Shown here: piece by piece, positions 2 through 27,892 of the stretch
Layout of the letters: each line of letters starts with the position of its first letter
How positions within the stretch are numbered: the stretch's first letter is position 1
Source of the DNA: a virus
IMG/VR virus record: IMGVR_UViG_3300013115_000501
Span: 1-28,355 of that record
DNA length: 28,355 bases
Direction: 5' to 3' (one strand)
Notes under the pieces: generated by a model
What the model saw: the letters and a program-made list of their open reading frames with translations, nothing else
Told to the model about the DNA's origin: nothing
Databases searched by the model: none
Made by a program: the position numbers and the translations under genes

Positions 2-3000
2 GAACTGGAAGCCCTGGCCGGCGAAGGTGCTCCGGTTGCCGAGGAAGCCGAAGGCGAGGAAGCCGCGCCTCTGACTCCTGGCGAGCGGGTGGCCGAGGCA
101 TTCTCCGAGCGTTTGGCGAGCGAGTCCATCCACAGTTCGCAAGACGTGGGCATTATCGCGGAACTCCTGAAGCGTGTGACCGAGGTGCGTGCCGCTGACC
201 CGGCCATTGGGGAGCGAGCATTCGAGGAGGCTGACATCCAGGTGGAGGGCCCGCGTGCCCGGAAGCCAACCCTGGAGAAGGCCCTCGATCGCATTGGGCT
301 CCTCGATCTCATCGGAGACATACGCAAGGGGCGCACGCCCGAAGACCGGGTGATGAAGACCAAGCACCCCGTTCTGAATATCATCCGCAACCAGGGCGGC
401 ATTGCGACGGTCAGGCAGAACGCTGCGGGCGAGTGGGAGCGGACAACGCTGGCAGGCGAATTGGCCGCGATGGACATCACACCGAAGACGTTCCCCGGCC
501 TATTCCGTGACCCCCGGAAGGCGCGCGGTAACAGGCCAGCCCCACGCGGTGAGGTCGATGCGTTTGACTTTACGGAGTCTGGGCTCTTCGAGGTGGATGA
601 CCGGGGGCATGTTGTCGATGTCAACGATGTGCTGGAAGCGATTTCGGAAGAGGTCGCGGGCCGCCCCAGGCCCACTCGGGAAGAAGCGGAAGAGATGGGC
701 GCGATCAGCCAGCCCCGGCTGGAACTCGAGAGGGTCTTTTCGGAGTTGGGGATCGATCCCGAGGTAATGACCGACGAAGAGATTCTGGAGTCTCTCAGCC
801 GGTACATCCCCGAGGCCCCAGACCCTGCGGTCGAGGAGGTCAGCCTTGACGAGGACGATGATCCCTTCTTCCAGACGCTGAACCAGAATGCCTACACCAA
901 GTCTGCCGACATGACGCCCGAGCAGACGGCGGCAGCGTTCCGGCATATCGACTCCCGGCCGGATGCTGAGCGCATCCGCGAAGCCCTGGTGCGGCTGCAC
1001 GGGACTCCCTGGGAAGACCAAGCCATGTACGGCGCGCTAATCCGCCAGCACCTGGAAGACCTCATGGCGGGGAGCGAGGTGGATTACACGAGCGGGCTCG
1101 ATGAGGTGGGCAAGAACGGCAAGCCGGGCTGGATACGCTTGGCCGCCGAGGAAGGCCCCGAGGCGCTTTGGCGTGGGCTAGAGAAGTACAAGGTGCTGGG
1201 CACGCCCGGCAAGCCTGTCTGGGCCATCAACTCAAGTTTCCTCAACTGTGAGCCCTCGGCGGATTGCGCGAAATTCTGTTACGCGGCAGACGGCTATCGG
1301 TACAAAACTGACGCTTCGGTAATGAAGAGCGAGGTGATCCAGTGGGCAGTTGAGCAGAATCCGCAGAGAGCCGGTGAGATTGGTGCCCGGCAATACAAGG
1401 CAACGGCAGAGTTTGCGGTAGGCAAGGCACTGCGGATCAATGACAAGGGCGACCTCTCCCCGGCCTATATCCCCTTTATCGAGTCGCTGAACAAGAACGG
1501 TGTGCGGACTCAGGTGTTCTCCAAGCGACCTGAACTGCTCCGTAAGGTGCCCGAGGACAACCTGCGCCTGTTGTCGGTCGATGACTCCAATAGCCAGCAG
1601 ATGGCCGCTGACAACCCTGACCTGTTGCTTGCCGTGGTCTACCAGGGCAGCGAAGACATCCCCTTCCTGAAGCAGTACGCGGACAGGGTGCAGGTCATCC
1701 TGCCCGTCAAGAAGGGGCAGAGGACGCTGGACAAGGCTGAGATCCAGGCGATCCCGAAAGAGTTCAGGCCCAATATCTGCCCGGTCGATGGGTTTGGTAA
1801 GACCGTTGGCACGATTGGCAAGTACAAGGACGGGAAGCCAGAGTGGAACTGCGGTTCCTGCGACAAGAACGCTGGGCTAGGCTGTTTCCGGGGGACGACC
1901 TCCAAGGCCATCCTCGACGTTATAGGGAAGGATCTACGCAATGCCCCAGAAGAACTCCTCGAAGACCTCGACTCCCTTATCAGCGCAGCCGGCGAGCTTG
2001 ATGGAGACGCAAGACGACTCCTTCTTGGACGGGCTAATCTACTCGTATCTGCGCTACGGGAGGGCGTTAAGCTCGAAGAAGCGGAAGCAACTCCTCAAGG
2101 CTATCAAGAAACAGGCGACCCTGACGGCCTCGGATCTGCTGAACTAGACCCAAAGACCACCACCCTCGAGCAGCCCGCAAGGCCGGGCACCCGTGGCTCG
2201 CTCACCTATGCCGAGGACTTGTCCAAGACGGTTCTGACTCTCTCGGAGTCTGAGAACCTTTCGACGGCCCTGCATGAACTCGGGCACCTCTTCTTTGTGA
2301 TGATGGTCAAGGATGCCCAGACCGAGGGCGTGCGCCCAGAACTCCAGAGGGACATGGAAACCGCCTTGAATTACCTGGGGGCTTCCTCGGTGCGGGATCT
2401 CATCAAAGACCCCGAGACTGGGCAACTCAGCGAGCAGGGGCGCGAGTTCCATGAACGCTGGGCCCGTTCCTTCGAGGCGTACCTGCGCGAGGGCAAAGCG
2501 CCGATCCCTGAACTCCGTGATGCGTTCCGTCGCTTCCGCAGTTGGCTGATCGAAGTCTACCGGCAGATCAGGGGCCTGAACGTCGAACTCTCCGATGACA
2601 TACGGGGAGTCTTCGACAGGTTGCTAGCCACCGAGGAGGCGATCGCGGCAGCGGCAGCGTCCAGCCCGGCCCAGCGTGCGTTTGAGTCTCAGGAGCAGTC
2701 TGGGCTCTCTGATGCAGAGTATGCCGCTTACGAGAAATCGTTCCGCCGCATATCGGACGAGGCTGAAGAGAGACTGATCGCCCAGGTGCTTCGCGAGGAG
2801 GCCCAAGCCGAGATCGAACGAGCAGGGAATCGACGCGACCAGGCACGCGAGCAGGCCGAGGTAGACGTGAGGGCCCGGCCGGTTGCTCAACTTCGCTACT
2901 GGCTGCAACGTGGCGAAACCATTGCCGAGGGTTCGCCAGCGGCAGGGCTCCCTACAGAGGGCAGGAAGCTCGACACGGCAAGGGTGGCGCAGATCTTGGG

Positions 3001-6000
3001 GCGTTCCACCAAGGACGTGCAGCGGGTTATGGGGGGCACCGGGCAGTACGGCATGACCCAGCACGGTGGGCAAGAGCCGGGCATTGTGGCCGAGCTTTGG
3101 GGGTTCTCTTCTGCCGAGGCGATGATCCGCGCTCTCTACGACTCGAGTGGGATCGAGCAGGAGATCGAAGCGGAGACAGAGCGCAGACTACGGCAGGGCC
3201 AGGGCGATCCCTTGCGCGACGGGTCGATTCATGCCCGCGCCCAGGAGGCGATTGACGGGGACGCCAAGGCGAGTTTCCTGATGCGCCAGCTTTCTATCCT
3301 GGGGCACCGGGCGGGTATTGCGAAGAACCTGCCGCAGAAGGTGCTGAAGGACGCCGCCGAGCGAATCATTGACGGGAAGGCCATTCGGGACATCAGGCCC
3401 GGCCTGTACCGCGCCGCCGAGGCCAGGGCTTCCCAGGAGGTGCTCGATGCTGTGGCTGCCCAGGACTGGGCGGCAGCGCACGCGGCTGGCCGGCAGCAAC
3501 TCCTGAACCACTACCTGGCGAAGCAAGCCGAGGCCATGAAAGCCGAGAGCGAGAAGTGGCGACGGTTCTGGTCAGACTTCAACAAGAAGGCACTCCGCAA
3601 GCGGTTGGCCCAGACTGGCAGCGGATACCTCGAGGCTGCGGACTCACTTCTCGATCGGTTCGACATTCGCCAACTCTCGAACAAGCAGGCCAATATCAAC
3701 CTCGGTGAGTGGATGATGAGTATCCTCAGCAACGTCGATGCGTACAACAAGGCGCTAAACGGCGAGGACGGGAGCACGGGGACGATGCTCCCTGAGCCGC
3801 AGTTCGCCTTCAGGGAACTCGCCTTCGATACCGAGTACCGCAAGCACTGGCGGATGCTCACGGTGGCCGAGGCCAAAGAACTCACCGCTGCACTCTCCAA
3901 TATCAAGCACCTCGCGCTGCGAGAGTTGACGATCAAACTGGAGAACGAGGAGCGGGAGTTCCTGGCGGTTCGCAACGAAGCGACGGCGCAGATCACCAAG
4001 ACCCGCCGCAAGTTCAAGCCGCCGCCGATAGGCGCACGCAATGACCCGGCCCATACGCTCCACTCCTGGGCGGCAAACTATTTGGTGGATCACCGAAAGC
4101 CCACCTCTCTGCTCCACGAGATGGACGGCGGTTACGATGGGATAATGACCCGGCTCATTGTCCACCCGATGGACGCAAGCCACGCCAAGGAAGAGGCCAT
4201 GCTCCTCGACGCGGGGGAGAAACTCCAGGCCCTCTTCGCCCCCTATATCCGTAGCGGGTTCTTTGAACCAGACGCTTGGAAGCGGAGCCTCGACATGGGT
4301 GGGGTGGTGAGTCTGACAGCGAAGGCCCTGGACAAGAAGAGCCCACTGGCCCCGAGGATCACGGACAAGAAACTCGTGCCCGGCACGGCCAATATCGAAC
4401 TCTCCCATTTAGAGCGCATCATGGCAGTGATGAACATGGGCAACGCCGGGAACATGCAGAGGCTCGAGGATGGCTACCACTGGAACCGTGAAGAGATGCG
4501 GGCAATTCTGGCAACCATGCAGAAGCCCGATATGGATTTCATCCAGGGGGTTTGGGACTTCATCGAGACATACTGGGAAGAGATCGCCGCGATTGAGAAG
4601 CGGCGCACCGGGGTCAAGCCCGAGAAGGTCAAGGCCATCGAGATCCAGACCCCGTTTGGGACATACCGGGGCGGGTACTTCCCTGCCGTCTACGATGGGG
4701 ATCAGCTTGCGATTGCCACGACCAACACTGACACTTTTGAGGCTTACCAGGACTTCCTCGCCGCCCAAGGCAGAACGAAGACCCAGGACAGTTTCACGAA
4801 GGCCCGCGCTCGCAAGGTCAAGAACAGGCCCATGCGGCTTGATTTCGATGTGATCTTTCGGCATGTGGGGGATGTGATTCACCGGCTCTCGTTTGAGGAT
4901 TGGGCAGTCAATACCGGCAAGCTCTTGGCCGATCAGCATATGGCCCAGACGATCCTCGAGATGTATGGCCCCGAGGTATGGAGGGCCATCAAGGACTGGC
5001 ACGCCGATGTAGTCCGTGGCGAAGGGCAAGGGGTCACTACTGCGACGGAGAGGCTCTCGGGGTATTTCAGAACCGGCATGGCAGTGTCCTCAATGGGCAT
5101 GAACCTGGGCACGTCAATCCTCCAGCCCTGGGGATTGTTCAATGCGCTGAAGCCCTCCAATCTCGGGCCCAAGTGGGTCGCGAAGGGTTTTCAGAGTTGG
5201 TGGCGGGACTTCGATAGTGCGGAGGGGCAGGCTCACATGATTCGCACTATTCGCCATATCCGCGAGGTGTCTCCGACCATGCGGAACCGGCTCTCGGCTG
5301 CCGCCTCGAATACGCGGGAGATGCGGGAAGTGGCGAGCCAGTTGAACAAGGAGGGGGTTCTGGGCCCAGTGCGTAGCAAGTTCTTCCTGCCGATAATTAT
5401 GATGCAGGCGACGGTGGACATACCGATATGGCTTGGCGCATACGCGAAAGAGATGCAGACCGGGAGCGGCGAAGAGTCCAAGGCGATCGCGATGGCCGAC
5501 AGGATGGTCATCAATACCCAGGGCAGTGGCCGCATTGGCGACCTGTCAGGAGCCCAGCGTCAGCAAAAGGTTCTAACCCTGTTCATGTCATTTATGAATA
5601 CAGTGAACGACCAAGCCGCTCTGGACATCCGCTGGGCCAGGAGCGGAAACATCAACCCCATGAAGCTAGCCCTAGGACTGGCCTCGCTCTATATGCCATA
5701 CGTTTTTACGAAGATGATGCAGGACTTCCTACGCGACTCCTGGGACGAAGAGGAAGACGATCCGTGGCCTCTCTTTGCTCTAAAATACGGAGCGGGAGCA
5801 ATAGCGGGGGGGTATTTCGGTGGGTTCACAGTAATACGAGAAGGCACCGGGATGATCGAAGGGTTCGACTATCGAGGCCCAGCGGCTCTGGGCATCGTTC
5901 CCAAAACCGCCGCTGCCGTGAAGGTACTCCTGGACGAAGACCCGATCGATGATAGGGGAGTGACTTCGCTCATCATGGCGACCTCTGTAGTCGCCCGCGT

Positions 6001-6094
6001 GCCTGGCGTGCAGCCCAAACGCTGGTACGAGTTGTGGATGGAAGACGAAGACATAGACCTGGGCACCATTGTCTACGGCCCAAGGAAGGACTGA
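2..6094 (+). CDS. Giant phage polyvalent protein (5'-truncated) with GP88-like and zincin domains
   Basis: The frame is open to the left edge, so the N-terminus is missing. GTG at 89 is only an internal codon, though it is used for numbering here. Over 2000 residues remain. Residues about 365-600 carry a Cys-rich domain like the phage GP88 family: NCEPSADCAKFCYA, then LRINDKGDLS, then WNCGSCDKNAGLGCF. About 700-850 is a zincin domain with HELGH at 729-733, the type found in large polyvalent phage proteins. The middle is charged and helical. The C-terminal 700 residues contain a GGYFPAVYD segment and weakly hydrophobic helices near the end. Proteins of this type are packed in the virion and ejected with DNA; host-takeover or peptidase roles are inferred. 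The tailspike gene starts 3 bases after the stop, which fits a late virion operon. The class is confident; individual functions are not proven. Confidence 0.85.
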   Translation, partial: ELEALAGEGAPVAEEAEGEEAAPLTPGERVAEAFSERLASESIHSSQDVGIIAELLKRVTEVRAADPAIGERAFEEADIQVEGPRARKPTLEKALDRIGLLDLIGDIRKGRTPEDRVMKTKHPVLNIIRNQGGIATVRQNAAGEWERTTLAGELAAMDITPKTFPGLFRDPRKARGNRPAPRGEVDAFDFTESGLFEVDDRGHVVDVNDVLEAISEEVAGRPRPTREEAEEMGAISQPRLELERVFSELGIDPEVMTDEEILESLSRYIPEAPDPAVEEVSLDEDDDPFFQTLNQNAYTKSADMTPEQTAAAFRHIDSRPDAERIREALVRLHGTPWEDQAMYGALIRQHLEDLMAGSEVDYTSGLDEVGKNGKPGWIRLAAEEGPEALWRGLEKYKVLGTPGKPVWAINSSFLNCEPSADCAKFCYAADGYRYKTDASVMKSEVIQWAVEQNPQRAGEIGARQYKATAEFAVGKALRINDKGDLSPAYIPFIESLNKNGVRTQVFSKRPELLRKVPEDNLRLLSVDDSNSQQMAADNPDLLLAVVYQGSEDIPFLKQYADRVQVILPVKKGQRTLDKAEIQAIPKEFRPNICPVDGFGKTVGTIGKYKDGKPEWNCGSCDKNAGLGCFRGTTSKAILDVIGKDLRNAPEELLEDLDSLISAAGELDGDARRLLLGRANLLVSALREGVKLEEAEATPQGYQETGDPDGLGSAELDPKTTTLEQPARPGTRGSLTYAEDLSKTVLTLSESENLSTALHELGHLFFVMMVKDAQTEGVRPELQRDMETALNYLGASSVRDLIKDPETGQLSEQGREFHERWARSFEAYLREGKAPIPELRDAFRRFRSWLIEVYRQIRGLNVELSDDIRGVFDRLLATEEAIAAAAASSPAQRAFESQEQSGLSDAEYAAYEKSFRRISDEAEERLIAQVLREEAQAEIERAGNRRDQAREQAEVDVRARPVAQLRYWLQRGETIAEGSPAAGLPTEGRKLDTARVAQILGRSTKDVQRVMGGTGQYGMTQHGGQEPGIVAELWGFSSAEAMIRALYDSSGIEQEIEAETERRLRQGQGDPLRDGSIHARAQEAIDGDAKASFLMRQLSILGHRAGIAKNLPQKVLKDAAERIIDGKAIRDIRPGLYRAAEARASQEVLDAVAAQDWAAAHAAGRQQLLNHYLAKQAEAMKAESEKWRRFWSDFNKKALRKRLAQTGSGYLEAADSLLDRFDIRQLSNKQANINLGEWMMSILSNVDAYNKALNGEDGSTGTMLPEPQFAFRELAFDTEYRKHWRMLTVAEAKELTAALSNIKHLALRELTIKLENEEREFLAVRNEATAQITKTRRKFKPPPIGARNDPAHTLHSWAANYLVDHRKPTSLLHEMDGGYDGIMTRLIVHPMDASHAKEEAMLLDAGEKLQALFAPYIRSGFFEPDAWKRSLDMGGVVSLTAKALDKKSPLAPRITDKKLVPGTANIELSHLERIMAVMNMGNAGNMQRLEDGYHWNREEMRAILATMQKPDMDFIQGVWDFIETYWEEIAAIEKRRTGVKPEKVKAIEIQTPFGTYRGGYFPAVYDGDQLAIATTNTDTFEAYQDFLAAQGRTKTQDSFTKARARKVKNRPMRLDFDVIFRHVGDVIHRLSFEDWAVNTGKLLADQHMAQTILEMYGPEVWRAIKDWHADVVRGEGQGVTTATERLSGYFRTGMAVSSMGMNLGTSILQPWGLFNALKPSNLGPKWVAKGFQSWWRDFDSAEGQAHMIRTIRHIREVSPTMRNRLSAAASNTREMREVASQLNKEGVLGPVRSKFFLPIIMMQATVDIPIWLGAYAKEMQTGSGEESKAIAMADRMVINTQGSGRIGDLSGAQRQQKVLTLFMSFMNTVNDQAALDIRWARSGNINPMKLALGLASLYMPYVFTKMMQDFLRDSWDEEEDDPWPLFALKYGAGAIAGGYFGGFTVIREGTGMIEGFDYRGPAALGIVPKTAAAVKVLLDEDPIDDRGVTSLIMATSVVARVPGVQPKRWYELWMEDEDIDLGTIVYGPRKD

Positions 6095-6097
6095 CCA

Positions 6098-8923
6098 ATG
6101 ACAATCTCCACAGAATCCACGCGCGTGGAGTACGACGGGGACGGCGGCACCAAGCCGTTTGCGGTTCCCTTCAAATTCCTCGACAAGGTTGATCTGGTGG
6201 TGCTGCTCCGCGACAAGGCGGCAGGCACGGATGTGGTGCAGACGCTGACCACGCACTACACGGTCACGGGCGCGGGTGCAGCCAGTGGCACGGTGACGTT
6301 CGTGACGGCCCCGCCCACCGGCCAGCGGGTGGTGATCTACAACGACCCAGACCTGACGCAACTGGTGGACTATCAGAGCGGTGACACGTTCCCGGCCGAG
6401 ACACACGAGCAGGCGCTGGATCGTCTGACCTTGCAGCAGAAGCGGACGCGGGAATTGGTGGAGCGTGCGCCTCGCCTTCTCGAGGGTGACCTGAATGACG
6501 GCACGGGCACGTTTGACGCCAACCTGAACAGGATCAAGAACCTGGGCGTTCCTACTGCCAATGCGGACGCAGCGACAAAGAACTACGTGGATTCAACGGT
6601 CACGAATACCGTGGGCCCAATCCCTTCCGGCGGCACCTATGTGACAGCCACCGGCTCGACCACAGCGCGCACGATCTCCGACCGCTGGGCAGAGGTGTTC
6701 AATGTCAAGGACTACGGTGCGGTAGGGGACGGGGTTGCTGACGATACCGCAGAGATCCAGGCGGCTATCGACGCTGCTGGGGCATACGGTCACGTCTATA
6801 TCCCGTCTGGGACTTACATGCTATCGGATTCTTTGAAGGTCTTTAAGAACATACGAATGACCGGCGAGGGGATTGACTCAAAACTCCAAATGCTCCCCGG
6901 CAGCACAATGACAACACCGGGGATGATCCAACTGCCCAACACAATCAGCACAGACGGGTGGGCGACCAGCACCGCATACGCCTTGCAGGACTTTGTTTTC
7001 AACCCGGTGACGTTCGAGAATTATGTCTGCATTACTGCCGGGACTTCCGGGGCGACGGCCCCCACGGGCACCTCGGACGTTTCGGATGGGGTGTGCCAAT
7101 GGCGCTATCTATTCACGGCAGCCAGCGCAACCAGCGCGACTAATGTTGCCAACCGCTCCAGGATTGGACACTTCTTCCTTCATGGGAATAGCGTTGCCAA
7201 GTACGGGATTCTGGGGGTGACGAATCACACCTCTTTTATCGACTTGGTGATCCAAGGTACAACGGTGGCGGGCATACGCACGGGGTTTGGGTGGTGCAAC
7301 TATCTTGAGCGGGTAGAGGTGTCGTATACGAGTGGCGACGGCATCCAACTCATGGACAGCAACAACAACGAGACAGAGCTTAACTCCTGCAAGGTGTTTG
7401 CGAATGACGGGATAGGCATCCGGGTGAATGGGTACTCCGCCCTCAAGCTTGTCAACTGCTTGATGGAGTTCAACAAAAAAACAGGCTTCTATTCAGCCAT
7501 AGGCGGCAGAGGTCTGCATATTGATACATGCTATTTCGAGAGCAATTCAGAGGACGGTATTACCTTCGCACAGCCCCTGCCGTACACGGGTGGCACGTCT
7601 GACGTAAACATCAAGGCCGATATTATTTTGAATGGTTCCGCGTCAGATACTCAGACAGCGCGGGCATACCTCAACCACGGGGTAACCGTAAGCAACTGCT
7701 ACACGCTTGCGCGCTATGACAATGCGCCCACGAATGGGTTTTCCTTTGTCATGGCCCCCTCGGTGGATGGGTTGGTACTCACGGGCAATGCCGTGGGGGA
7801 TTCGTCAGTGGTAGACGCTGCCTTGCTCGGTACTCCGGGGCACCCTGAGACAAACGCGGCCGGTGTGAATGACGGCCTTGGATCCCCCACCGGAATGACG
7901 GCAAACGGTAATACTGGGTTTGCCTCCACTCTGGAAGTGTCATCGGTGGGGAATCTTGGCCTAAACCATATCGCCGCCTACGACCACCGTTTTGATACCG
8001 CACTCAATCGCAATATTGCGGTAACCGATATGGGCAAGTGGGGGGTAATCTCTGCGAGCAACGGGGGGACGTTTACCCGTTCCGCCGAAGTTTTTACGCC
8101 GGCCCCGAGACTTCCCGTATATGAGTTGGCCTGGGCGACTGCGAATGGGAGTCACCTGTTTGGGTACACGGTAGACGCGGCCGACTTCCCTGACCTCCAC
8201 AACAAGCAGATGATTATCGGGTGCTGGGTGAAACACCCGTTCTCTGGGAATGGAAATATCGCGCCCTACTTCAAACTCGGGGCCTCGGCCAATATAGCAC
8301 TAACCTCGAGTCACTCTTCAGATACGTCGTGGCGGAAATGGTTCTTTCGCTTCAAGATGCCAACCACGGGCACAGTGGGTTGGTCTGTGCGGAAGATTGG
8401 TGCGGCTGGCACAGTCCACGCGGCAGCGCCGATCCTCTGCGAGTACGGCGCGGACACGGAGCTACTCCTGTCCCAGGAGCCGCAGTTTACTGGGGTTACT
8501 TGGGGATCAGCCGCACCAGTGGCTGGGACGTATGCTGTGGGAAATATCGTCTACAACACAGCCCCCACAGCGGGCGGCACGATAGGCTGGGTCTGCACTG
8601 TTGCAGGCACCCCCGGCACCTGGAAGACCTTCGGGACAGTTGACCCCCAAACCGTCTTCACCGGCTCCGCTACTTGGAATCCGGGGACTGTCGGTTCATG
8701 GGTGGCAAAGTCAGTCAGCGTGTCGTGTCCGGGTGCGACGGTGGGGATGTTCGTGAAGTGCTCTCTTTCGTCTTTGGATGACGGGCCCAACATGTTCACA
8801 GTTTCGATTTCGGGCTTTGTGGAATCTGGCGGCGGCTCCGTCCGGGTGTCCCTTGCGAACATGAAAAGCGCATCCGTCGCCATTCCCAGCGGAACCGTCA
8901 AGGTCAGTGCATCGGCCACTTAG
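6098..8923 (+). CDS. Tailspike 1: T7-fibre-like N-terminus plus pectate-lyase-fold body
   Basis: 941 residues; ATG is preceded by AAGGAAGGA. Residues about 1-125 resemble the N-terminal virion-anchoring domain of T7 tail fibre gp17 (AVPFKFLDKVDLVVLLRD, then FPAETHEQALDRLTLQQ). A linker with NADAATKNYVDS follows. VKDYGAVGDGVADDTAEIQ at about 203-221 is the start of the pectate_lyase_3 parallel beta-helix common in phage depolymerases. Near residues 287-335 there is a small W-Y-C rich insertion (YALQDFVFNPVTFENYVCI) resembling a carbohydrate-binding module. The last 250 residues look like beta-sandwich receptor-binding modules. It probably binds and may cleave host surface polysaccharide. The N-terminal 220 residues are strongly similar to the next gene, so the two are paralogues with different heads. 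Catalytic residues cannot be assigned by eye. Confidence 0.88.
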   Translation: MTISTESTRVEYDGDGGTKPFAVPFKFLDKVDLVVLLRDKAAGTDVVQTLTTHYTVTGAGAASGTVTFVTAPPTGQRVVIYNDPDLTQLVDYQSGDTFPAETHEQALDRLTLQQKRTRELVERAPRLLEGDLNDGTGTFDANLNRIKNLGVPTANADAATKNYVDSTVTNTVGPIPSGGTYVTATGSTTARTISDRWAEVFNVKDYGAVGDGVADDTAEIQAAIDAAGAYGHVYIPSGTYMLSDSLKVFKNIRMTGEGIDSKLQMLPGSTMTTPGMIQLPNTISTDGWATSTAYALQDFVFNPVTFENYVCITAGTSGATAPTGTSDVSDGVCQWRYLFTAASATSATNVANRSRIGHFFLHGNSVAKYGILGVTNHTSFIDLVIQGTTVAGIRTGFGWCNYLERVEVSYTSGDGIQLMDSNNNETELNSCKVFANDGIGIRVNGYSALKLVNCLMEFNKKTGFYSAIGGRGLHIDTCYFESNSEDGITFAQPLPYTGGTSDVNIKADIILNGSASDTQTARAYLNHGVTVSNCYTLARYDNAPTNGFSFVMAPSVDGLVLTGNAVGDSSVVDAALLGTPGHPETNAAGVNDGLGSPTGMTANGNTGFASTLEVSSVGNLGLNHIAAYDHRFDTALNRNIAVTDMGKWGVISASNGGTFTRSAEVFTPAPRLPVYELAWATANGSHLFGYTVDAADFPDLHNKQMIIGCWVKHPFSGNGNIAPYFKLGASANIALTSSHSSDTSWRKWFFRFKMPTTGTVGWSVRKIGAAGTVHAAAPILCEYGADTELLLSQEPQFTGVTWGSAAPVAGTYAVGNIVYNTAPTAGGTIGWVCTVAGTPGTWKTFGTVDPQTVFTGSATWNPGTVGSWVAKSVSVSCPGATVGMFVKCSLSSLDDGPNMFTVSISGFVESGGGSVRVSLANMKSASVAIPSGTVKVSASAT

Positions 8924-8933
8924 GAGCAGTTGT

Positions 8934-11195
8934 ATGACAATCACCAGCACTCAAAATCGGATCACCTACGCGGGCAACGGGGCACCGGGTGTGCCTGGGG
9001 TGACCGCATTCTCGGTGCCGTTTCGGTTCCTCGCACCCGGCGACTTGGTGGTGCTCGTCCGCGACAACGCCACGGGCGTGGACACCACCAAGACCCTGGA
9101 TACGCATTACTCGGTGGCCGGCGAGGGTGCAGCAGCGGGCGGCACGGTGACGTTCCTGATCGAAGACGGGGAGCCGCAGACGGGCGAGACGCTGATCATC
9201 TACGGCAACCCGGCGCTCACCCAGACGGTGGACTACATCAGCGGCGGCGTCTTCCCAGCGGAGACACACGAGCAGGCCATGGACTTGCTGACCCTCCAGC
9301 AGGCGCGGACTCGCGAGCTTGTGGAGCGCACCCCGGGTCTGGTTGAGGGAGACACAGACGGCTCAGGCGCGTATGACGCGAACCTAAACAGGATCAAGAA
9401 CCTCGCTGTGCCCACTGCGGACGCAGACGCAGCGTCGAAGAACTATGTAGATTCCACCGTAACCAACACCGTGGGGCCTATCCCTTCGGGCGGGACATAC
9501 GTGACTGCTACGGGGTCAACCACAGCGCGCACGATTGCCGACCGCTGGGGTGAAGCATTCAACGTCAAGGACTTTGGCGCTGTGGGGGATGGTGTTACGG
9601 ATGACTCTGATGCAATCCAGGCGGCTCTGGACGCATGGCGCGAAGCGCCCACGGTTACCCATCCTAACCGCACGGGTGCGGCAAGTCTCTTGTTTCCACC
9701 GGGAGAGTACCTGTGCAATGATAATCTGAGTGTCACTTTCACAGAGGTCAATATAGGCAACAAGGATATTTCTGGGTACGGGGCAACGCTACGCTCCGCG
9801 GTTACCTCTGGAGACTTTCTCTTCTTCAAGTGCGAGGCTCTGGTGAGAAATATCTCGGTTAGAGGACTGCTGCTCAAGTCAGTTAATCAAGCCGAAGACT
9901 CCTTGCTGCGCGTTGATGGTGGTACTACCACTCCCGGCCCTTATGGCCTGCCCTTCTTCTACCAGTGCTCCTTCACTGACGTTACTCTGGAGGACTTTGG
10001 AGCCGATGGCTGGAAGTGCCAGAATGCCTTCTTTGAGAATAACTTCTATGACTGTTCTGCCAGGTCTAGCGTCGCGACGGGCGACGGATTCTTGTTTGAA
10101 GAGCCTGACTACTCAGGGATGAGTTCCATTAACCTGTTTGGCACTAACACATCCGGATGCGAGCACGGTGTATACGTCAAGAATCCCCTGTCTGACCTGA
10201 ACATTATTGGCGGCACGTTCCTCCAAGCGCAGAAGAACGGTATCCTCTACGAAAATGGACAAGGGTGCCTGGTATCTAACGTACACGTGGAGAACAACTG
10301 GGAAGGAGCGGCAGATCTCGCAAGCGGCGGGGCTGGTGTCCAGATAAACGGCTGGGGCTCAGCCATGAATATCCGGGGCACCTCCAACAGTAAGCAACTT
10401 ACGACCGTAGGATTCTACGTATCCGAGGGGAGAGTCTCAGACGCACAGGGAATTTTTGCAGGCGTTAACACCCAGTACGAGATCGCAGTAGCGGGGGCTG
10501 GGCCTAATTACGGAACGGTGAATTACTCAGGAAGTGGTGAGATCAAATACATCACCCCACAGGTCAATGTAAACCGCTCTGGCGCTAATGGCCTCCAGCT
10601 TGGTTCCGACCCTGAAAATCATCTGGGTAAGATCTATTCCAAGAGCGATGGCGTTGGGTTCGATCAGACCATGTACAGGTGGACAGGAGTCGGAGACTCC
10701 TACTATGCCTACCGCCTCTCTCCGCAAGCGGCTGCCACACTTGACCTTCAGACCAGTTCACTGAAAGATATTGGGTCTGAGGTGTGGACAACCGTTTACA
10801 CGGTAGACACCTCTGGGGCCATTGGGTTTACCAACCCGACACCGATTGCCGACAGTACCAACGATCTGGGCACATCGGCCAAACGCTGGCGGTCTATTTT
10901 TACGGATTCGATAGTTTCAACTATATCGACGCTCGCAGACGAGGCTACCCCAACGGTTGCTGGTGGTTCGATCTTTGTGACCAGCGGAACGGCCAACGAT
11001 CCTATCACGGACTTCGATAACGGCACCGTGGGCCAGACCATCACCATCCTCGCGGAGCACGCCATAACGATCACAGACGGCACGAACATTATCCTCCACG
11101 GGTCAGCCAACTTTGTCATGGCTGCCTCTGACTCGCTGACCTTGGTGCTCAAAGCCGATAACAAGTGGTACGAGACTGCGAGGATGGTGAACTAG
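8934..11195 (+). CDS. Tailspike 2: paralogue with same anchor and different beta-helix
   Basis: 753 residues from the ATG at 8934, chosen because AGGAG (8922-8926) lies 7 bases upstream and the protein then begins MTITSTQNRITYAGNG like tailspike 1; the frame is open further upstream but that would overlap the previous gene. The T7-fibre-like anchor is followed by AASKNYVDSTVTNTVG and the pectate-lyase-fold entry FNVKDFGAVGDGVTDD, nearly identical to the neighbour. The body diverges completely after that. The C-terminus (NDLGTSAKRWRSIFTDS, then ILAEHAITITDGTNIILHG) is a typical fibre-tip sequence. It likely recognises a different receptor or sugar than tailspike 1, or forms a branched spike with it. 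Its stop codon is directly followed by the next start. Confidence 0.87.
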   Translation: MTITSTQNRITYAGNGAPGVPGVTAFSVPFRFLAPGDLVVLVRDNATGVDTTKTLDTHYSVAGEGAAAGGTVTFLIEDGEPQTGETLIIYGNPALTQTVDYISGGVFPAETHEQAMDLLTLQQARTRELVERTPGLVEGDTDGSGAYDANLNRIKNLAVPTADADAASKNYVDSTVTNTVGPIPSGGTYVTATGSTTARTIADRWGEAFNVKDFGAVGDGVTDDSDAIQAALDAWREAPTVTHPNRTGAASLLFPPGEYLCNDNLSVTFTEVNIGNKDISGYGATLRSAVTSGDFLFFKCEALVRNISVRGLLLKSVNQAEDSLLRVDGGTTTPGPYGLPFFYQCSFTDVTLEDFGADGWKCQNAFFENNFYDCSARSSVATGDGFLFEEPDYSGMSSINLFGTNTSGCEHGVYVKNPLSDLNIIGGTFLQAQKNGILYENGQGCLVSNVHVENNWEGAADLASGGAGVQINGWGSAMNIRGTSNSKQLTTVGFYVSEGRVSDAQGIFAGVNTQYEIAVAGAGPNYGTVNYSGSGEIKYITPQVNVNRSGANGLQLGSDPENHLGKIYSKSDGVGFDQTMYRWTGVGDSYYAYRLSPQAAATLDLQTSSLKDIGSEVWTTVYTVDTSGAIGFTNPTPIADSTNDLGTSAKRWRSIFTDSIVSTISTLADEATPTVAGGSIFVTSGTANDPITDFDNGTVGQTITILAEHAITITDGTNIILHGSANFVMAASDSLTLVLKADNKWYETARMVN

Positions 11196-12266
11196 GTGCC
11201 CACCCTCCGAGGCAAAGTCGCGCGCCAGCACTTCCCGTCCGGGCAGGATGGGCAGGTGCTCGTGCTTGACACCGCGAGCCCGCACGGCATTGCGTGGCGC
11301 AGCGGGATCGACCGACTGGTGACGGACATCACCCCGGAACTCGCAGGGGACTTGGACTGCCAGGGCTACGAGTTGACCTCGGTTGGCGGCATAGGTTTCA
11401 CGGCCGGCACGTCACTGATTGCCGGAATCCAGAACCAGAACCTGCTGGACAAGACAGCCGCCGAGAGCATTTCCGGCGTCTACACGCATGATGCGGATAT
11501 TGTCATGGCCGACAATTCGATCACGGGCCTGGACACGCTGACGTTCACCGACGGAGCGGGCACGATTGCCGGGGTACAGAACCAGAACCTGCTCGACAAG
11601 AGCGCGACCGAGACAGTGGCCGGTGCCTGGACATACGGCTCCGAGATCGCAATGGGCACGAACAAGATTACCGGGGTGGGCGACCCTACGGCGGCCCAGG
11701 ACGCAGCGACCAAGGCATACGCCGACACGCAGCACGCGGGCTACCTATGCACCAGCGGTGTGTGGTCTGCCGGCGGAATGGGGGGAACACTGGGGGCTGG
11801 GGCCAACTTTGTGCCCATCACCGATATCACCTCGTGGACGGCTCATGCCCCCAACAGCGGCTGGACGGAAACGAGCAGCGAGTTCGAGTACACCGGCGAC
11901 TACCCGGCGGGAGGCACGAAGACTTTCCTCGTTCAGTACGCGATCCAGTTGCAGTTGAACGCCAGCGGGGCCACCGCAGCATATATCGGCCTTGCGGCGA
12001 AGATCACCAAGGACACAGGCACAGGGTCAGGCTACGCAGATGTTCCGGGCTCGATTGAGATTTCAGACATCGACGCCTACACCACGGGCTTCGGCCTGAA
12101 CTTCCATTGGCACAGCGTGTCTGGCAGTTGCATCGTTTCCGTGGAAGCGGGGGACACCATCGCCTTCAACTACGGCACCTACGGGTTTGGGGCATACACG
12201 CCGACCGCGTATGCGACCAACACCGGGACAGAAGGCGCGACGCTCACGATTACGCCCATAGGATGA
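11196..12266 (+). CDS. Tail fibre-like protein with tandem repeat and jelly-roll-like C-terminus
   Basis: 356 residues, GTG start immediately abutting the TAG of tailspike 2, with a purine-rich stretch (CGAGGATGG) before it. Residues about 70-165 contain two copies of a unit built on AG(I/V)QNQNLLDK(T/S)A.E(S/T)(I/V)(S/A)G, followed by TNKITGVGDPTAAQDAATKAYAD, a motif common in phage fibre shafts. The last 170 residues (WTAHAPNSGWTETSSEFEY, then FLVQYAIQLQLNASG) look like a compact beta domain of the C1q/TNF jelly-roll kind, which is an inference from pattern only. It probably forms an accessory fibre or a distal tip. There is no T7-type anchor, so it may attach to one of the two spikes. Confidence 0.75.
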   Translation: MPTLRGKVARQHFPSGQDGQVLVLDTASPHGIAWRSGIDRLVTDITPELAGDLDCQGYELTSVGGIGFTAGTSLIAGIQNQNLLDKTAAESISGVYTHDADIVMADNSITGLDTLTFTDGAGTIAGVQNQNLLDKSATETVAGAWTYGSEIAMGTNKITGVGDPTAAQDAATKAYADTQHAGYLCTSGVWSAGGMGGTLGAGANFVPITDITSWTAHAPNSGWTETSSEFEYTGDYPAGGTKTFLVQYAIQLQLNASGATAAYIGLAAKITKDTGTGSGYADVPGSIEISDIDAYTTGFGLNFHWHSVSGSCIVSVEAGDTIAFNYGTYGFGAYTPTAYATNTGTEGATLTITPIG

Positions 12267-13810: not shown

Positions 13811-14088
13811 TGGATCCGGCGGATCTGCTGGCGGCGAAGCACGAGGAGCGCACTCGCGACCGCACGGTGGTGGGGCTGTGGCTCGCTGAACTCCCCCCCG
13901 AGGAGCGCGAGCGTTTCCGCCAGTTCATCTTGGCGTATAAGGCGCACGCGGCCTACCGGATTCCCGTCCTGCTCGAGGCGATCCGCGCCGACGAGGTGTT
14001 GGGTGAGGGCGGCGCGGAGTTTCCGGACACAACCGGCGAGAGCATGAAGAAATTCCTGAAACGCTATGACGCCGAAGCCACCGACTGA
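13810..14088 (+). CDS. Small hypothetical protein (92 aa)
   Basis: Start set at ATG 13810, overlapping the previous TGA by one base. The product is highly charged and helical (MDPADLLAAKHEERTRDRT, then LPPEERERFRQFILAYKAH). No membrane segment or cysteine motif is seen and no family is recognised. Its 3' end overlaps the phosphoesterase start by 23 bases. Its position between lysis genes and the phosphoesterase gives no functional clue. Confidence 0.6.
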   Translation: MDPADLLAAKHEERTRDRTVVGLWLAELPPEERERFRQFILAYKAHAAYRIPVLLEAIRADEVLGEGGAEFPDTTGESMKKFLKRYDAEATD

Positions 14089-14944
14089 AGTCCTCGAGGC
14101 CGCTGCGGTTGACCCGGAGGCCAGGGCTGCCGCACGCGAGCGAGTGCAAAAGCTCGAGGCACCTGACCCGTATCCCGCAGCCCCGCGTCCCACCCTGGGC
14201 GGCATCGACATCCTCGTGGTGCCGGACTCCCATGCCACGCCCGGCATTCCCAACCACCGCTACGAATGGCTGGGCCGCCTCGCCAATGACCAGGGCGTAG
14301 ATGTGACTATCGATATTGGTGACTGGTTCGACATGAACTCGCTGAACGCATACGACAACAAGCCGGGAAGCCGCAGTTTTGAGGGTCGCCGGTATTGGGA
14401 GGATATTGACATTGGCCTGGACGCCCGGCTGAGATTCCGCCGCGAGCTTGCCGGCCACGAGCCCCGTCTGATCGCCTGCCTAGGCAATCACGAGGCAAGA
14501 ATCACACGCTTCGTGGAGGAGGAGATTCGCTTCGAGGACATCATCGGCCTGGATGATCTGCGGGCCGAGGAGTTGGGCTGGGAGCAGGTGCCTTTCCTCG
14601 AGCCCATCGAGGTCGCGGGTACTTTTTACGCACATTATTTCACCAGCGGGGTCATGTCTCGCCCAGTGGGAGGGATTCACCAGGCGTCAGCAATAGTGGC
14701 GAAGCAGTTAACAAGCGGCGTTATGGGCCACACGCACACGATGGATTACGCGGTAAGGACGGATGCCGCGGGCCGTCACCTGCACGGACTGGTGGTGGGG
14801 TGCTTCTTCGAGCACCACATGGATTGGGCGGGCCCGGCGAATGCCCTTTACAACCGGGGGGTGGCGATCCTGCGGAATGCCCAGGGCGGGGAGTTCGACC
14901 TGGAGTGGTGGTCGATGGAGCGCATCAAGGCCCGCTATGGGTAA
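14066..14944 (+). CDS. Calcineurin-like metallophosphoesterase
   Basis: 292 residues with the full metallophosphoesterase signature in order: D54-x-H56 (VVPDSHA), G85-D86 in DIGDWFD, GNHE at 140-143, and GHTH at 221-224, preceded by an FYAHYFTSG segment near 190-198 that supplies a further histidine. These residues bind two metal ions. The enzyme would hydrolyse a phosphomonoester or diester; phage relatives are often found near replication or packaging genes but their substrates are mostly unknown. It is encoded between the lysis block and a SprT-like protein, with short overlaps on both sides (23 and 8 bases). A DNA-end or nucleotide substrate is possible but not shown. Confidence 0.85.
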   Translation: MTPKPPTEVLEAAAVDPEARAAARERVQKLEAPDPYPAAPRPTLGGIDILVVPDSHATPGIPNHRYEWLGRLANDQGVDVTIDIGDWFDMNSLNAYDNKPGSRSFEGRRYWEDIDIGLDARLRFRRELAGHEPRLIACLGNHEARITRFVEEEIRFEDIIGLDDLRAEELGWEQVPFLEPIEVAGTFYAHYFTSGVMSRPVGGIHQASAIVAKQLTSGVMGHTHTMDYAVRTDAAGRHLHGLVVGCFFEHHMDWAGPANALYNRGVAILRNAQGGEFDLEWWSMERIKARYG

Positions 14945-15311
14945 GCGCCTCCCCACCCGCGCCCGCCTGCACCAGATCCTGCGCTGGGCCTGCCACACAT
15001 GGGACACTGCCGCGCGCCTCCGCGTCGAGAAGCGTCTGCCCAAGGCGTACAAGGGGTGTCTTGGATGCGTGGAGTTCCCCGATGAGTTCCCGAAAGGGTT
15101 GCCGCCGCTGATCCGCGTCCTCAAAACCAACCGATCGCAGAGCGCGGAGACCCTGTTGCATGAGTTCGCCCACATCCTCGACGCGCACCGAAATGGGTTC
15201 AGCGATAGCCGGAAACACGAAGGCCACGACGCGAAGTTCCGCAACGTGGCCCATGAGGTGCTGGTTCGCTTCGTCTACGAAGGGGGCGAGGTCGAGAGTC
15301 AGGATTTCTGA
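14937..15311 (+). CDS. SprT-like small zinc metallopeptidase
   Basis: 124 residues from ATG 14937, overlapping the phosphoesterase end by eight bases; a longer in-frame extension upstream lies wholly inside that gene and is rejected. The core is LLHEFAHILDAH with HExxH at 75-79. A second conserved block GHDAKFRNVAHEVL (H97) gives the third ligand, as in SprT/Spartan-type domains (HExxH...HGxxF). Two cysteines, C41 and C44, form a CxxC that might bind another metal. SprT-like domains in cells act on DNA-bound proteins; a role in virions or against host proteins is conjecture. It is the last gene of the rightward late block. Confidence 0.7.
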   Translation: MGKRLPTRARLHQILRWACHTWDTAARLRVEKRLPKAYKGCLGCVEFPDEFPKGLPPLIRVLKTNRSQSAETLLHEFAHILDAHRNGFSDSRKHEGHDAKFRNVAHEVLVRFVYEGGEVESQDF

Positions 15312-15335
15312 GCCCCTCTGAGCCCCTCTGAGCCC
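15308..15335. repeat. Tandem 10-bp repeat at convergent gene ends
   Basis: The unit CTGAGCCCCT occurs at 15308 and 15318 and partly at 15328. The first copy contains the stop codon of the SprT-like gene. Because the unit is 10 bp, TGA appears at 15309, 15319 and 15329, closing all three forward frames. The rest of the convergent gap (15336-15382) is C-rich and shows no clear hairpin with a U tract. Confidence 0.8.
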
Positions 15336-15382
15336 CGATCTCCCACCCCTCACCCCAGTCCACCCGGCAGGATAAAGCCCCG

Positions 15383-16327
15383 TCAGCGGACGCTCAGCCG
15401 CCTAGCAAGCTCGCCAATAGCCGCCGCTGCCTGGAGAGGAACGACCGCATTCCCGAGGCACCTGAGCCTATCGTTGGCGTACTCCAGCCCGGTGGGAGTC
15501 CCATCAGAGCCTCGACGAAGGCCGGATTCAAGCGTTGGCGCGGGGCCTCCAGCGGCGAGCCACTCTCGCCAGCCGAGACTGTCGGCAGGCCCAGGCGGGA
15601 AGCCCTGACGGTCGCGTCCGTCAAGGTCACCCCCTCGCTCCGTCCGCTCTCCGTCGAGTACCCCGCTGACCCGCTCCCCACTGCGTCCTGGCTCGTGGGT
15701 GTCGGCCACTTGTCGGCCGCCGCTTGCAGGTCGCCCCCCCCGCTCTCTGTCCTGCCCAGTTCCTGCTTCCGCTCCGCGCTCTCCGCTCCCCCGGTGATCG
15801 TCCGAGGAGTCGGCCACGAAGAGCCCGAAGAATCGAGCCCTTCGGTGCGGGGCACCCACGGCGCTCGCGGGTATGCACAACCATTCGCTACGCCACCCGC
15901 CCGGCTCAATGTCCTCCAGTCCTCCGAGGATGCTGGGCAGTCCGTGAAGAGCGAAACCTGGGACGTTTTCCAGCACGAGGATGCGGGGTCGAATTTCATC
16001 GACCACCCGGAGGAGATCCTCTCCGAGCCATCTGTCATCTGCGAGCCCTTGACGCTGGCCTGCAACGCTGAACGGCTGGCAGGGGATTCCGCCAGCGATG
16101 CAATCCACTTTGCCGCGCCACGGCTTGCCGTCGAAGGTTGAGAGATCGTCCCAGATAGGCGCGCTATCCAGGGCCTGCTCTTCCATCCGCGCCACGAGAG
16201 TGGCCGCTGCGAAGCTTTCCCGCTCAACATGACAGACGGTGCGGTAGCCGGGCCACAGGATTCGGAGGCCAAGCTCGAGTCCTCCAATCCCGGAACAAAC
16301 AGCCAAGCCATTCACGCGAGTCTCCAT
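15383..16327 (-). CDS. DNA (cytosine-5) methyltransferase
   Basis: 314 residues, start at ATG 16327 (METRVNGLAVCSGIGG), overlapping the preceding winged-helix gene by 16 bases. The frame is open further upstream, but that part reads through other genes. C5-methylase motifs appear in order: I, SGIGGLELGL (12-21); IV, GIPCQPFS with the catalytic Cys83; VI, ENVPG (120-124); VIII, HRRARFFGL; and X, RLRCLGNAVVP near the C-terminus. The target-recognition region between VIII and X is short and repetitive, rich in Gly, Arg and Asp. It methylates cytosine in a DNA sequence that cannot be predicted, probably to protect phage DNA from host restriction. No partner restriction enzyme is seen. It is the last gene of the leftward operon. 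Confidence 0.93.
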   Translation of the reverse strand: METRVNGLAVCSGIGGLELGLRILWPGYRTVCHVERESFAAATLVARMEEQALDSAPIWDDLSTFDGKPWRGKVDCIAGGIPCQPFSVAGQRQGLADDRWLGEDLLRVVDEIRPRILVLENVPGFALHGLPSILGGLEDIEPGGWRSEWLCIPASAVGAPHRRARFFGLFVADSSDDHRGSGERGAEAGTGQDRERGGRPASGGRQVADTHEPGRSGERVSGVLDGERTERGGDLDGRDRQGFPPGPADSLGWREWLAAGGPAPTLESGLRRGSDGTPTGLEYANDRLRCLGNAVVPLQAAAAIGELARRLSVR

Positions 16328-16572
16328 GCCGTTGCCCGCTTCCCGGTCACGCTGCACTTCCGCGTGGTGGTGTCGCGCACCACGAACCCCATGCGCTCCA
16401 ATTCCGGCAACCTGCGCCACGCCTCCATGCCCAGGTGCGCCCCCAACTCGCGACCAGTGACTGGCCTCTTCGCCTCTCCCAGGCCCCTGAGTACTGCCCG
16501 GTGGAGTCTCCCCAGTTTGCCGCTGTCCTTCAGGGTCGCGAATGCTTCGGCGCTGGTGGAGGCGGAGGTCAT
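16312..16572 (-). CDS. Small winged-helix protein
   Basis: 86 residues from the ATG at 16572, which overlaps the previous TGA as ATGA; an upstream ATG at 16593 is less likely. The sequence LHRAVLRGLGEAKRPVTGRELGAHLGMEAWRRLPELERMGFVVRD reads as a winged helix-turn-helix: helix, helix, recognition helix, then a wing ending with ATAWRLA. It may bind DNA to regulate this operon, or assist the methyltransferase whose start it overlaps. Function is inferred from the fold only. Confidence 0.65.
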   Translation of the reverse strand: MTSASTSAEAFATLKDSGKLGRLHRAVLRGLGEAKRPVTGRELGAHLGMEAWRRLPELERMGFVVRDTTTRKCSVTGKRATAWRLA

Positions 16573-17357
16573 ACGCCGCACATCCCCTCGCATTCTTCCT
16601 CAAACATGTTGACCTGCCTAGTTTCATCCCAGTCCGGGTCATCAATGACCTCACGCAACGGGCGCAGGGACCGATGGACAAACTGCTCAGGGCCGATGGC
16701 CTCATCGACTTGGCAAGCATCCTCAAACGAGTCCGGGTCACGATCACGCATGGCAACCCATTCACGGTGTCCCTGGAAGGGGCAGAAGGTGCAAGCAGAG
16801 CGACCCGGCAGCGGGTGGCCGCGCCCCTCCATCCAGTCGAGGCAGTCGCCTCGGCGCATCGGAACGTCGTAGAGCAAGGGGAAACGGTTCTCGATCCATG
16901 AGTCTCTGGAAGGCTTTGCCCTCGTCGCCTCATCAACGGAAATGCCAACCCAGCACTCCACGCTGTACTTCCCTGCCGCGCGTTCTCCCCTGGAGAGTCC
17001 CAACTCGCGTCGAACTTCTTGCTTGCAGGCTTCTAGCTTAAACTGGCGGGTACACTGCCTCCGTCCAAGGGATTCGCGTCCATCTCGCTCAACCCAGAAT
17101 GGAACAGGAGTAAACCCTCCACGGACTGCCCGGTCGCGGAGATTGCCTTCGGTCGAAGTATGAATTGGGATAATGTGACCGAAGGTATCGATGAGCCATT
17201 TCAGATGCGTGTAAACGTGTTTCGGCTCGCTCTGCGTATCCGCGAAGACCGCGAAATCCGGCATGGGCGTAAGCTCTCCCTCCACCGCCATCAGATACAT
17301 CGCGGTTGACTGCACGCCTGCGCCCAGGCTTATGTAGCGGAGGTCGAAGTCAGCCAT
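16569..17357 (-). CDS. PAPS-reductase-like PP-loop ATP pyrophosphatase family protein
   Basis: 262 residues; start at ATG 17357, sharing one base with the upstream stop (TGATG). Near the N-terminus YISLGAGVQSTAM (8-20) is a PP-loop of the adenine-nucleotide alpha-hydrolase superfamily, followed by FAVFADTQSEPKHVYTHL, typical of PAPS reductase/CysH-like and DndC-related proteins. RRQCTRQFKLEACKQEVRREL and a later CTFCPFQGHREW add conserved cysteines that could bind an iron-sulfur cluster or zinc. Such phage proteins are common but their substrate is unknown. In this operon, next to a DNA methyltransferase, a role in nucleic-acid modification is possible; assimilation of sulfate is unlikely. 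No DndD/E or IscS partner is visible. Confidence 0.75.
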   Translation of the reverse strand: MADFDLRYISLGAGVQSTAMYLMAVEGELTPMPDFAVFADTQSEPKHVYTHLKWLIDTFGHIIPIHTSTEGNLRDRAVRGGFTPVPFWVERDGRESLGRRQCTRQFKLEACKQEVRRELGLSRGERAAGKYSVECWVGISVDEATRAKPSRDSWIENRFPLLYDVPMRRGDCLDWMEGRGHPLPGRSACTFCPFQGHREWVAMRDRDPDSFEDACQVDEAIGPEQFVHRSLRPLREVIDDPDWDETRQVNMFEEECEGMCGV

Positions 17358-24693: not shown

Positions 24694-24987
24694 TTGCCTT
24701 TTGTGAAGGGGGAACCGAGGCCAGCGAACGCGGGCAGGCGTGCAGGGACGCCCAACAAGACCACCCGTGCGGTCAAAGAGGCTCTGATGCGCGCCCTGGA
24801 GGCAACGCGGGAAGACGGGGGCGAGCAGTTCTTCGCAGACCTGCGGGACAGCGATCCGAAAACATTCGCGACCCTGGTGAGCAAACTCATTCCCAACCAG
24901 ACGCACGTCACGGGCGACGAGGGCGGCCCGGTGGTGGTGTTCCGCGATTACACGGGGGGGGCCAGTGGCCGCAGCGACGAGGACTAA
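24694..24987 (+). CDS. Terminase small subunit-like protein
   Basis: 97 residues from TTG 24694. This start is chosen because GGAG at 24682-24685 lies eight bases upstream and the protein then begins MPFVKGEPRPANAGRRAG, a beginning common among small phage proteins encoded before TerL (compare the DUF5681 pattern KGxSGNPxGRPKG). A helical part follows (VKEALMRALEATREDGGEQFF, then DPKTFATLVSKLIP). It would recognise viral DNA for packaging. It overlaps the TerL frame by 23 bases. Small-subunit identity rests on position and this N-terminal pattern. Confidence 0.7.
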   Translation: MPFVKGEPRPANAGRRAGTPNKTTRAVKEALMRALEATREDGGEQFFADLRDSDPKTFATLVSKLIPNQTHVTGDEGGPVVVFRDYTGGASGRSDED

Positions 24988-27889: not shown

Positions 27890-27892
27890 GCA

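Follow-up and report, generated by a model that had tools for sequence, protein, structure and literature searches.

What does a cysteine-rich, GP88-like module do inside a giant phage protein? The question is raised by IMG/VR virus record IMGVR_UViG_3300013115_000501, a contig of 28,355 bases classed as linear, which was analysed over its whole length (the window). Its first gene encodes a giant polyvalent protein in which the first-pass annotation had described a Cys-rich GP88-like module directly before an HELGH zincin module. Our analysis has confirmed that both modules are real, with family motifs present and homology supported by profile comparisons. "Directly before" is roughly right, the GP88-like module ending near residue 640 and HELGH starting at residue 758. 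We have also found that the module is exchangeable cargo, and profile and motif evidence places it in a new subfamily of fused modules that recurs among viruses. The parts of the giant protein are as follows.

2..6094, + strand: giant polyvalent protein, a relative of BPP-1 bbp10 (phrog_9880); 2,030 residues, 5′ end missing at the contig start
305..883, + strand: upstream domain, residues ~101-294, common to the giant protein of locus L265 (BLASTP aligns residues 101-749 to L265 717-1315, 44%)
884..2156, + strand: exchangeable cassette, residues ~295-718, swapped in frame for a C5 DNA methyltransferase in contig L010
959..1921, + strand: GP88-like seven-cysteine module, residues ~320-640, delimited by profile comparisons and subfamily alignment; a fold like that of radical S-adenosylmethionine (SAM) enzymes is predicted from standalone relatives
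2183..2851, + strand: zincin-type metallopeptidase region, with HELGH at 2273-2287 (residues 758-762)
2852..6094, + strand: conserved C-terminal part, defined by the phrog_9880 match, tblastn and an alignment of relatives

Exchange of the module for a DNA methyltransferase

A scan for close relatives of the window returned one contig, L010. The two sequences are identical at 119 of 119 nucleotides (nt) on the left flank (window 765-883) and at 7,149 of 7,157 nt from window position 2157 on. Between these flanks lies a differing segment of 1,306 nt in L010 and 1,273 nt in the window, and a single reading frame runs through both junctions in both contigs. In L010 the cassette encodes a C5 cytosine DNA methyltransferase domain (PF00145, E 1.6e-23). 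Elsewhere in the window there is a separate C5 DNA methyltransferase ORF (open reading frame; 15386-16948, − strand), which is only remotely related to the L010 cassette (BLASTP E 1e-6 over 86 residues).

Independent support for the cassette comes from a BLASTP comparison of the window protein with 33 other carriers of the module (described below), where the aligned module stretches mostly start at ~287-330 and end at ~631-709, close to the swap limits of 295 and 718. In some carriers the alignment extends from the module into the zincin part, and the L265 alignment spans both swap limits. In a single ORF, another locus, L271, combines the module with a methyltransferase resembling that of L010 (40% identity, E 1e-59) and with a zincin-like region. 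The GP88-like module is exchangeable cargo. The earlier suggestion of cargo delivered to act early is strengthened by the DNA methyltransferase that takes the module's place in the twin, and the module may act right after DNA entry.

The same position was surveyed in the 80 nearest relatives of the zincin and C-terminal part. Five loci without the searched form of the zincin motif and four with fewer than 150 residues upstream were left out, giving 71 scannable slot regions, or 72 with the window. Pfam identified ART-PolyVal in 10 of the 72, LPD3 and PBECR5 in four each, and GGDEF, DUF7178, MuF_C, PBECR1 and GNAT in two each; DNA methylase (in L010), PBECR3, DUF3293 and Pol-beta each occurred once. 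GP88 was found by Pfam in none of the 80 whole relative records. A 22-member profile of the fused type likewise had no match in six-frame translations of these 80 relatives and five named phages, so the module is absent from those stretches and not merely below the Pfam threshold. LPD22 was present in all four relatives scanned, with ART, PBECR5 or PBECR1 alongside in three of them; in the window protein, LPD22 would fall in the missing part before the contig start. Ahead of the zincin lies a variable cargo slot in which a GP88-like occupant is rare among these relatives.

Relationship to GP88 and a recurring fused subfamily

The motifs that relate the module to GP88 (PF17338) are listed here.

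1247..1279, + strand: first Cys cluster, C416-x5-C422-x3-C426, then Y-A; the counterparts of these Cys in the GP88 family model are found in the loop that follows strand 1
1430..1453, + strand: L477-R478-I-N-D-K-G483-D484, counterpart of the family R-I-H-x-S/D-G-D-F at the end of strand 2
1517..1582, + strand: F506-S507-K508 and N520-L-x-L-L-S525-V-D527, counterparts of strand 3 (YTK/YTR) and strand 4 (NLxxxxS)
1778..1885, + strand: second Cys cluster, C593-P ... C617-x2-C620-D ... C628 (C617-x2-C620-x7-C628), from the sequence and the subfamily alignment

The three-Cys cluster followed by C[Y/F]A of GP88 is present in the window module, and the R, I, G, D, S-K, N-L and S of the later motifs are retained, with H changed to N and F to L. 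In profile comparisons with hhalign, a seven-protein GP88 profile matched the cassette alone (probability 84.4, E 7e-6), an alignment of 56 GP88 proteins matched the module at E 1.1e-5, strand 3 falling on FSK and strand 4 on NLRLLS, and GP88 matched the 22-row fused subfamily at a probability of 94.9 and E 4.5e-8. A 72-member GP88 hidden Markov model (HMM) gave the module 16.1 bits, and the best of 2,000 shuffles (922 reported by the program) reached 4.7 bits; chance resemblance was rejected on this basis. In the reverse direction, the fused-type HMM recovered 23 of the 72 GP88-type proteins, each at E ≤0.001. NCBIfam had no match for the cassette or for three GP88 proteins. The relation to GP88 proposed in the first-pass annotation is thus supported by the subfamily comparison and by the HMM score above shuffles, and the profiles suggest that the window module represents a sister subfamily of GP88, not a member of GP88 itself.

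Homologues of the GP88 family occur in at least 381 phage records. In the GP88 alignment the three-Cys cluster is near-universal, and the C-terminal Cys cluster is missing in several members. Standalone GP88-type proteins were also common in actinobacterial genomes (loci L178-L251, most of which are actinobacterial contigs), and many of these proteins have the triad but not the C-terminal cluster.

Single-protein scans with the window module or with the GP88 protein vir335 gave no match or one near copy, and a scan with the N-terminal part of the window module recovered only L010. Relatives emerged after the module had been aligned with two distant GP88 proteins, and a second scan then returned 33 loci, some of them near copies. 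All 33 are viral, and in all of them the module belongs to an ORF that measures 513-6,983 residues from stop to stop, several of these ORFs being truncated at contig ends. The patterns C-x5-C-x3-C[YF] and C-x2-C-x6-8-C are each present in 33 of 33, and 237 of the 253 Cys in 78,014 carrier residues fall inside the module. In an alignment of 21 of these loci with the window (22 rows), the seven Cys, L-R, G, F-S-K, L-S-x-D, C-P and C-D are invariant, the Cys triad being present in 22 of 22. Pfam matched GP88 at E ≤0.001 in 8 of 20 other carriers (best 3.1e-6). Domains resident in the same 20 carriers include ART-PolyVal (11), LPD22 (5), RadC (4), ddrB-ParB (2) and DNA methylase (1).

Outside these contigs the fused type was hard to find. 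The window module gave nothing convincing by tblastn in phage or plasmid collections, the modules of L282 and L265 had no tblastn match in 50,697 phage records, and no fused type was found in cultured phages by tblastn of phage records. Two long UniProt entries in BFVD (A0A6J5RM19, A0A6J5SA55) bear the name "Gene product 88 domain-containing protein", which means that fused GP88 is already present in databases. The fusion was initially taken to be unusual; it holds as a fusion, but not as a one-off, since the seven-Cys fused modules form a new recurring subfamily with shared motifs.

Cysteines and predicted fold

All seven Cys of the 2,030-residue protein lie inside the module, at 416, 422, 426, 593, 617, 620 and 628. 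Relatives of the protein are almost free of Cys, with 43 in 172,976 residues of 75 proteins and at most three in each. In loci L010-L089, where ORFs were called mechanically, ORFs of at least 1,000 amino acids have 36 Cys in 186,254 residues and the remaining ORFs, some of which are spurious, have 2,011 in 215,257. An effect of Cys-rich composition was rejected, with seven of seven Cys in the module and a Poisson P of ~1e-6 at the relatives' rate. The single Cys of the L010 giant protein sits in the SPVC of its methyltransferase, which we take to be the place of the catalytic Cys in C5 methyltransferases.

Because the protein family is otherwise nearly without Cys, the seven in the module are unlikely to be idle, and they are probably metal ligands. 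The idea of a metal cluster, raised at first only as a possibility, gains from this distribution and from the presence of both Cys groups in all 33 related modules. Avoidance of thiols plausibly fits a protein that crosses the cell envelope unfolded; unfolding during ejection has been proposed for the N4 virion polymerase (PMC12633501). The near-absence of Cys from giant ejection-type proteins, seen in L010-L089 and in L265-L297, could be a general signature of such a crossing. Cys avoidance except at likely catalytic or ligand sites would also make functional cysteines in ejected proteins easy to recognise.

Structure prediction had been suggested as a check on these ideas, and it gave a confident model for a standalone GP88 protein and a poor one for the window module (predicted local distance difference test, pLDDT, 57), which is too weak for placing a metal site. 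The fold argument is therefore made from standalone GP88 relatives. The GP88 model (L102, 56 sequences) has a pLDDT of 94.4 and a predicted template modelling score of 0.91, with alternating strands and helices. Its Cys triad (39, 46 and 50) follows a strand at 28-30, and a G-D pair (111, 112) follows a strand at 104-110. Radical-SAM enzymes have their Cys loop after strand 1 and a GGE motif at the end of strand 2.

In a VIA-align search with the GP88 model, rows 1-29 of the 50 listed were radical-SAM enzymes, a class that we assigned partly from presumed enzyme function by name, and the first other row was a designed protein at rank 30; a family outside the list could also resemble the model. 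The best row was spore photoproduct lyase (4fhe; Z 7.5, root-mean-square deviation 3.4, 164 aligned), and other neighbours include SuiB, QueE, TYW1, viperin and NifB. In BFVD, phage proteins named as radical SAM come after the GP88 entries, at ranks 23, 33, 38, 41 and 44. No PDB structure was found by sequence for the GP88 family or subfamily. The models suggest that GP88 is a partial TIM barrel of radical-SAM-like type, which is a prediction of fold from standalone relatives and not an assignment of membership.

The giant protein and neighbouring genes

Residues 728-2013 of the giant protein match phrog_9880 (E 9e-229), and tblastn of its zincin and C-terminal part matched 43 phage records, including bbp10 of Bordetella phage BPP-1. 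In the zincin region H31, E32 and H35 are kept in five of five aligned sequences. The upstream domain (residues ~101-294) has no Pfam match. The annotation of bbp10 reads "part of the structural protein cassette", and its gene is preceded by those for an internal virion protein and an endolysin. Among ten neighbours of five other carriers, PHROGs identified tail protein phrog_376 in three, nothing in three, and an endolysin, an internal virion protein, a tail fibre/spike and a kinase in one each; the kinase lies beside L286, whose carrier ORF has 513 residues. Directly 3′ of the giant protein gene in the window is the following gene.

6098..8923, + strand: tail spike with a T7 tail-fibre N-terminal domain (PF03906) and beta-helix domains

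Given the structural annotation of bbp10, the T7-type fibre/spike genes downstream and the tail-tube, lysin, internal-virion-protein or tail-spike genes beside other carriers, the giant protein is probably ejected into the host, a reading that leans on homology and gene order.

Tail-spike genes stand in tandem at 6098-11195 (+ strand), with similar N-terminal domains and a common stretch that is ~71% alike, and a third ORF (11196-12266) bears a short piece of the tail-spike N-terminal domain. The region 6098-12266 is a receptor-binding duplication. Further along are genes for a metallophosphoesterase (14066-14944), Gam-like end protection (17357-17869, − strand), an exonuclease (17869-18705, − strand), the terminase large subunit (24965-26440) and a head-tail adaptor (from 27893 on). 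The gene content of 14066-18705 and 24965-28354 is consistent with a podovirus fragment. At 21841-23612 (+ strand) a QueE-like radical-SAM protein (phrog_2076, E 7.6e-22) is directly followed by a queuine tRNA-ribosyltransferase-like protein (phrog_887, E 2.9e-11). This pair suggests that the phage may also make a 7-deazaguanine-type modification of nucleic acid.

Proposed role and alternative explanations

We propose that the module is a GP88-like, radical-SAM-like iron-sulfur (Fe-S) enzyme carried as cargo in the interchangeable slot of an ejected polyvalent protein, most likely for counter-defence. On balance we consider this probable, with ample room for doubt. A podovirus resembling BPP-1 and T7 would package the giant protein and eject it into the host, residues ~295-718 serving as the interchangeable slot, here filled with the GP88-like module. 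The near-Cys-free protein would pass the tail unfolded and then refold in the cytosol, where the host Fe-S assembly machinery would load its clusters. The three Cys that follow strand 1 would coordinate a SAM-binding [4Fe-4S] cluster, with the second, four-Cys cluster besides, and the adjacent zincin would possibly free the module. The module would then modify a target in a SAM-dependent reaction and so help the phage withstand host defence. The target is most likely nucleic acid or a nucleotide, because a DNA methyltransferase can occupy the module's place. That exchange favours, without proving, a nucleic-acid target; other slot occupants are ADP-ribosyltransferases and nucleases. More specifically, an apo enzyme of radical-SAM type might be ejected, activated by the host and set to modify the incoming DNA or nucleotides, as a non-methyl counterpart of the methyltransferase, in which case near-identical phages would swap DNA-protecting chemistries through one cassette. 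We regard this more specific version as speculative and doubtful.

Several observations weigh against the proposed role. The left flank of L010 is just 119 nt long and stops at the contig end, and both contigs come from uncultured viruses. The module did not reach the Pfam GP88 cut-off (16.3 bits against 24.4, E 0.009, residues 413-531), and in a six-frame search the window scored 20.3 bits, again below the gathering score of 24.4. The family-invariant His of RIHxxGD is Asn in the window, and the Phe after GD is Leu. All 29 radical-SAM rows of the GP88 model have Z ≤7.5, and according to the tool a Z below 8 may mean a common arrangement only. The window module is itself poorly modelled; 13 of the 14 top rows for its model were radical-SAM enzymes, but at Z ≤5.4. 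Foldseek gave no PDB match at E ≤0.001 for either model. Under HMMER's filters, Pfam Radical_SAM (PF04055) matched neither the window at E up to 1 nor eight standalone GP88 proteins at E up to 10. The canonical CX3CX2C is not present, the window having CX5CX3C and D29 CX6CX3C. Variant Cys motifs do occur in other radical-SAM enzymes.

The module could instead be an injected toxin for host takeover, acting for example on host tRNA, nucleotides or a metabolite, and not a protector of phage DNA. This we hold to be unlikely but quite credible. The ADP-ribosyltransferases and BECR-type nucleases among the other slot occupants, the ART-PolyVal domains in 11 of 20 carriers, and viperin and TYW1 among the structural neighbours would all suit a toxin. 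The twin, however, is the closest comparison possible and has a DNA methyltransferase in exchange, and the RadC and ddrB-ParB domains of some carriers also point to DNA.

We also judge it rather unlikely that the Cys clusters bind zinc in a module which, built on a TIM-like scaffold, has a structural or nucleic-acid-binding role and no radical-SAM chemistry. The missing Radical_SAM match, the non-canonical Cys spacing and the modest structural Z would be explained in this way, and the weak PDB matches of the subfamily profile include the zinc-type ribosomal protein L37Ae/eL43 (E 0.52 and 0.96, not significant). What speaks for the radical-SAM-like enzyme is the different fate of the two clusters, the triad being near-universal in the GP88 alignment and the C-terminal cluster absent from several members, together with the 29 of 29 top structural rows. 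The family model also puts the triad in the loop behind strand 1 and G-D where strand 2 ends, which are the positions of the Cys loop and GGE in radical-SAM enzymes.

The consecutive arrangement of the module and the HExxH domain raises the thought that they act as a pair, like fused radical-SAM/alphaKG-HExxH enzymes that modify peptides, and not as cargo and protease. Such a fusion is in print, going by the title of Morishita 2024, and reportedly catalyses cyclophane formation and beta-hydroxylation. Here the pairing is most improbable. The HExxH region is kept in relatives with other domains in the slot, and none of their 80 records has the GP88 family. Several of the 33 carrier ORFs, complete ones or partial ones, show no HExxH or have it N-terminally or far from the module, and in a published survey the zincin of the BPP-1 homologue bbp10 was assigned to a CLCA_X metalloprotease-like family (PMC3650047).

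Finally, the difference between the window and L010 might be an assembly chimera that says nothing about exchange, as these are metagenome contigs and L010 starts 119 nt before the junction, but we give this very little credence, because the frame is kept through both junctions in both versions, homology to other carriers often stops near the same boundaries (~287-330 and 631-709), L265 has the module between homologous flanks and L271 has both domain types in one ORF.

Comparison with known systems

Polyvalent proteins, GP88 and processing of cargo by zincins are each known separately. In the literature that we searched on GP88, radical SAM and polyvalent or injected phage proteins, we met no account of the fused seven-Cys subfamily, of a swap between its module and a methyltransferase in near-identical phages, or of GP88 as radical-SAM-like; in the passages concerned of PMC10853773, PMC7159879 and PMC8066314, the search words occur in unrelated contexts. 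If the proposed role is correct, the enzymes delivered by phages before or together with their DNA would come to include a metal-cluster radical chemistry, and a catalytic class would be suggested for GP88, which Pfam describes only as "Gene product 88". The near-isogenic pair, one phage having the module in the slot and the other a methyltransferase, offers a natural experiment for comparing the two cargoes against a single background.

Like GP88 of Mycobacterium phage D29 and its family, the window module has a three-Cys cluster then CYA, R-I-x-x-x-G-D, a strand-3 F/Y-T/S-K/R and a strand-4 N...S, and it shares the C-terminal CP...CxxC cluster of D29-type proteins. In contrast to GP88, it is fused into a giant virion-type protein, has an extra conserved N-terminal part, and carries C-x2-C-x7-C where GP88 has C-x2-C-x2-C and Asn where GP88 has the His of RIH. 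With radical-SAM enzymes such as spore photoproduct lyase, QueE, viperin, TYW1 and NifB, the likeness lies in the predicted fold of standalone GP88 and the three-Cys loop after strand 1; the differences lie in CX5CX3C in place of CX3CX2C and the lack of a Pfam Radical_SAM match, use of SAM being a prediction.

As in the polyvalent proteins described by Iyer et al. 2017 (PMC5512222), the protein is a giant with many domains encoded near late genes and has a zincin, and its relatives carry LPD22, ART, PBECR and methylase domains. Proteins of that class are giants that join several enzymatic domains unrelated to one another, often together with zincin and LPD domains, and the window protein combines the GP88-like module with the zincin. 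The main text of PMC5512222 has no mention of gp88, radical SAM or cysteine, and describes no cargo of GP88 or radical-SAM type. The closest named counterpart is bbp10 of BPP-1 (NP_958679), which is homologous in the zincin and C-terminal part (tblastn 30%, E 3e-106) and has PBECR1 in the slot where the window protein has the GP88-like module.

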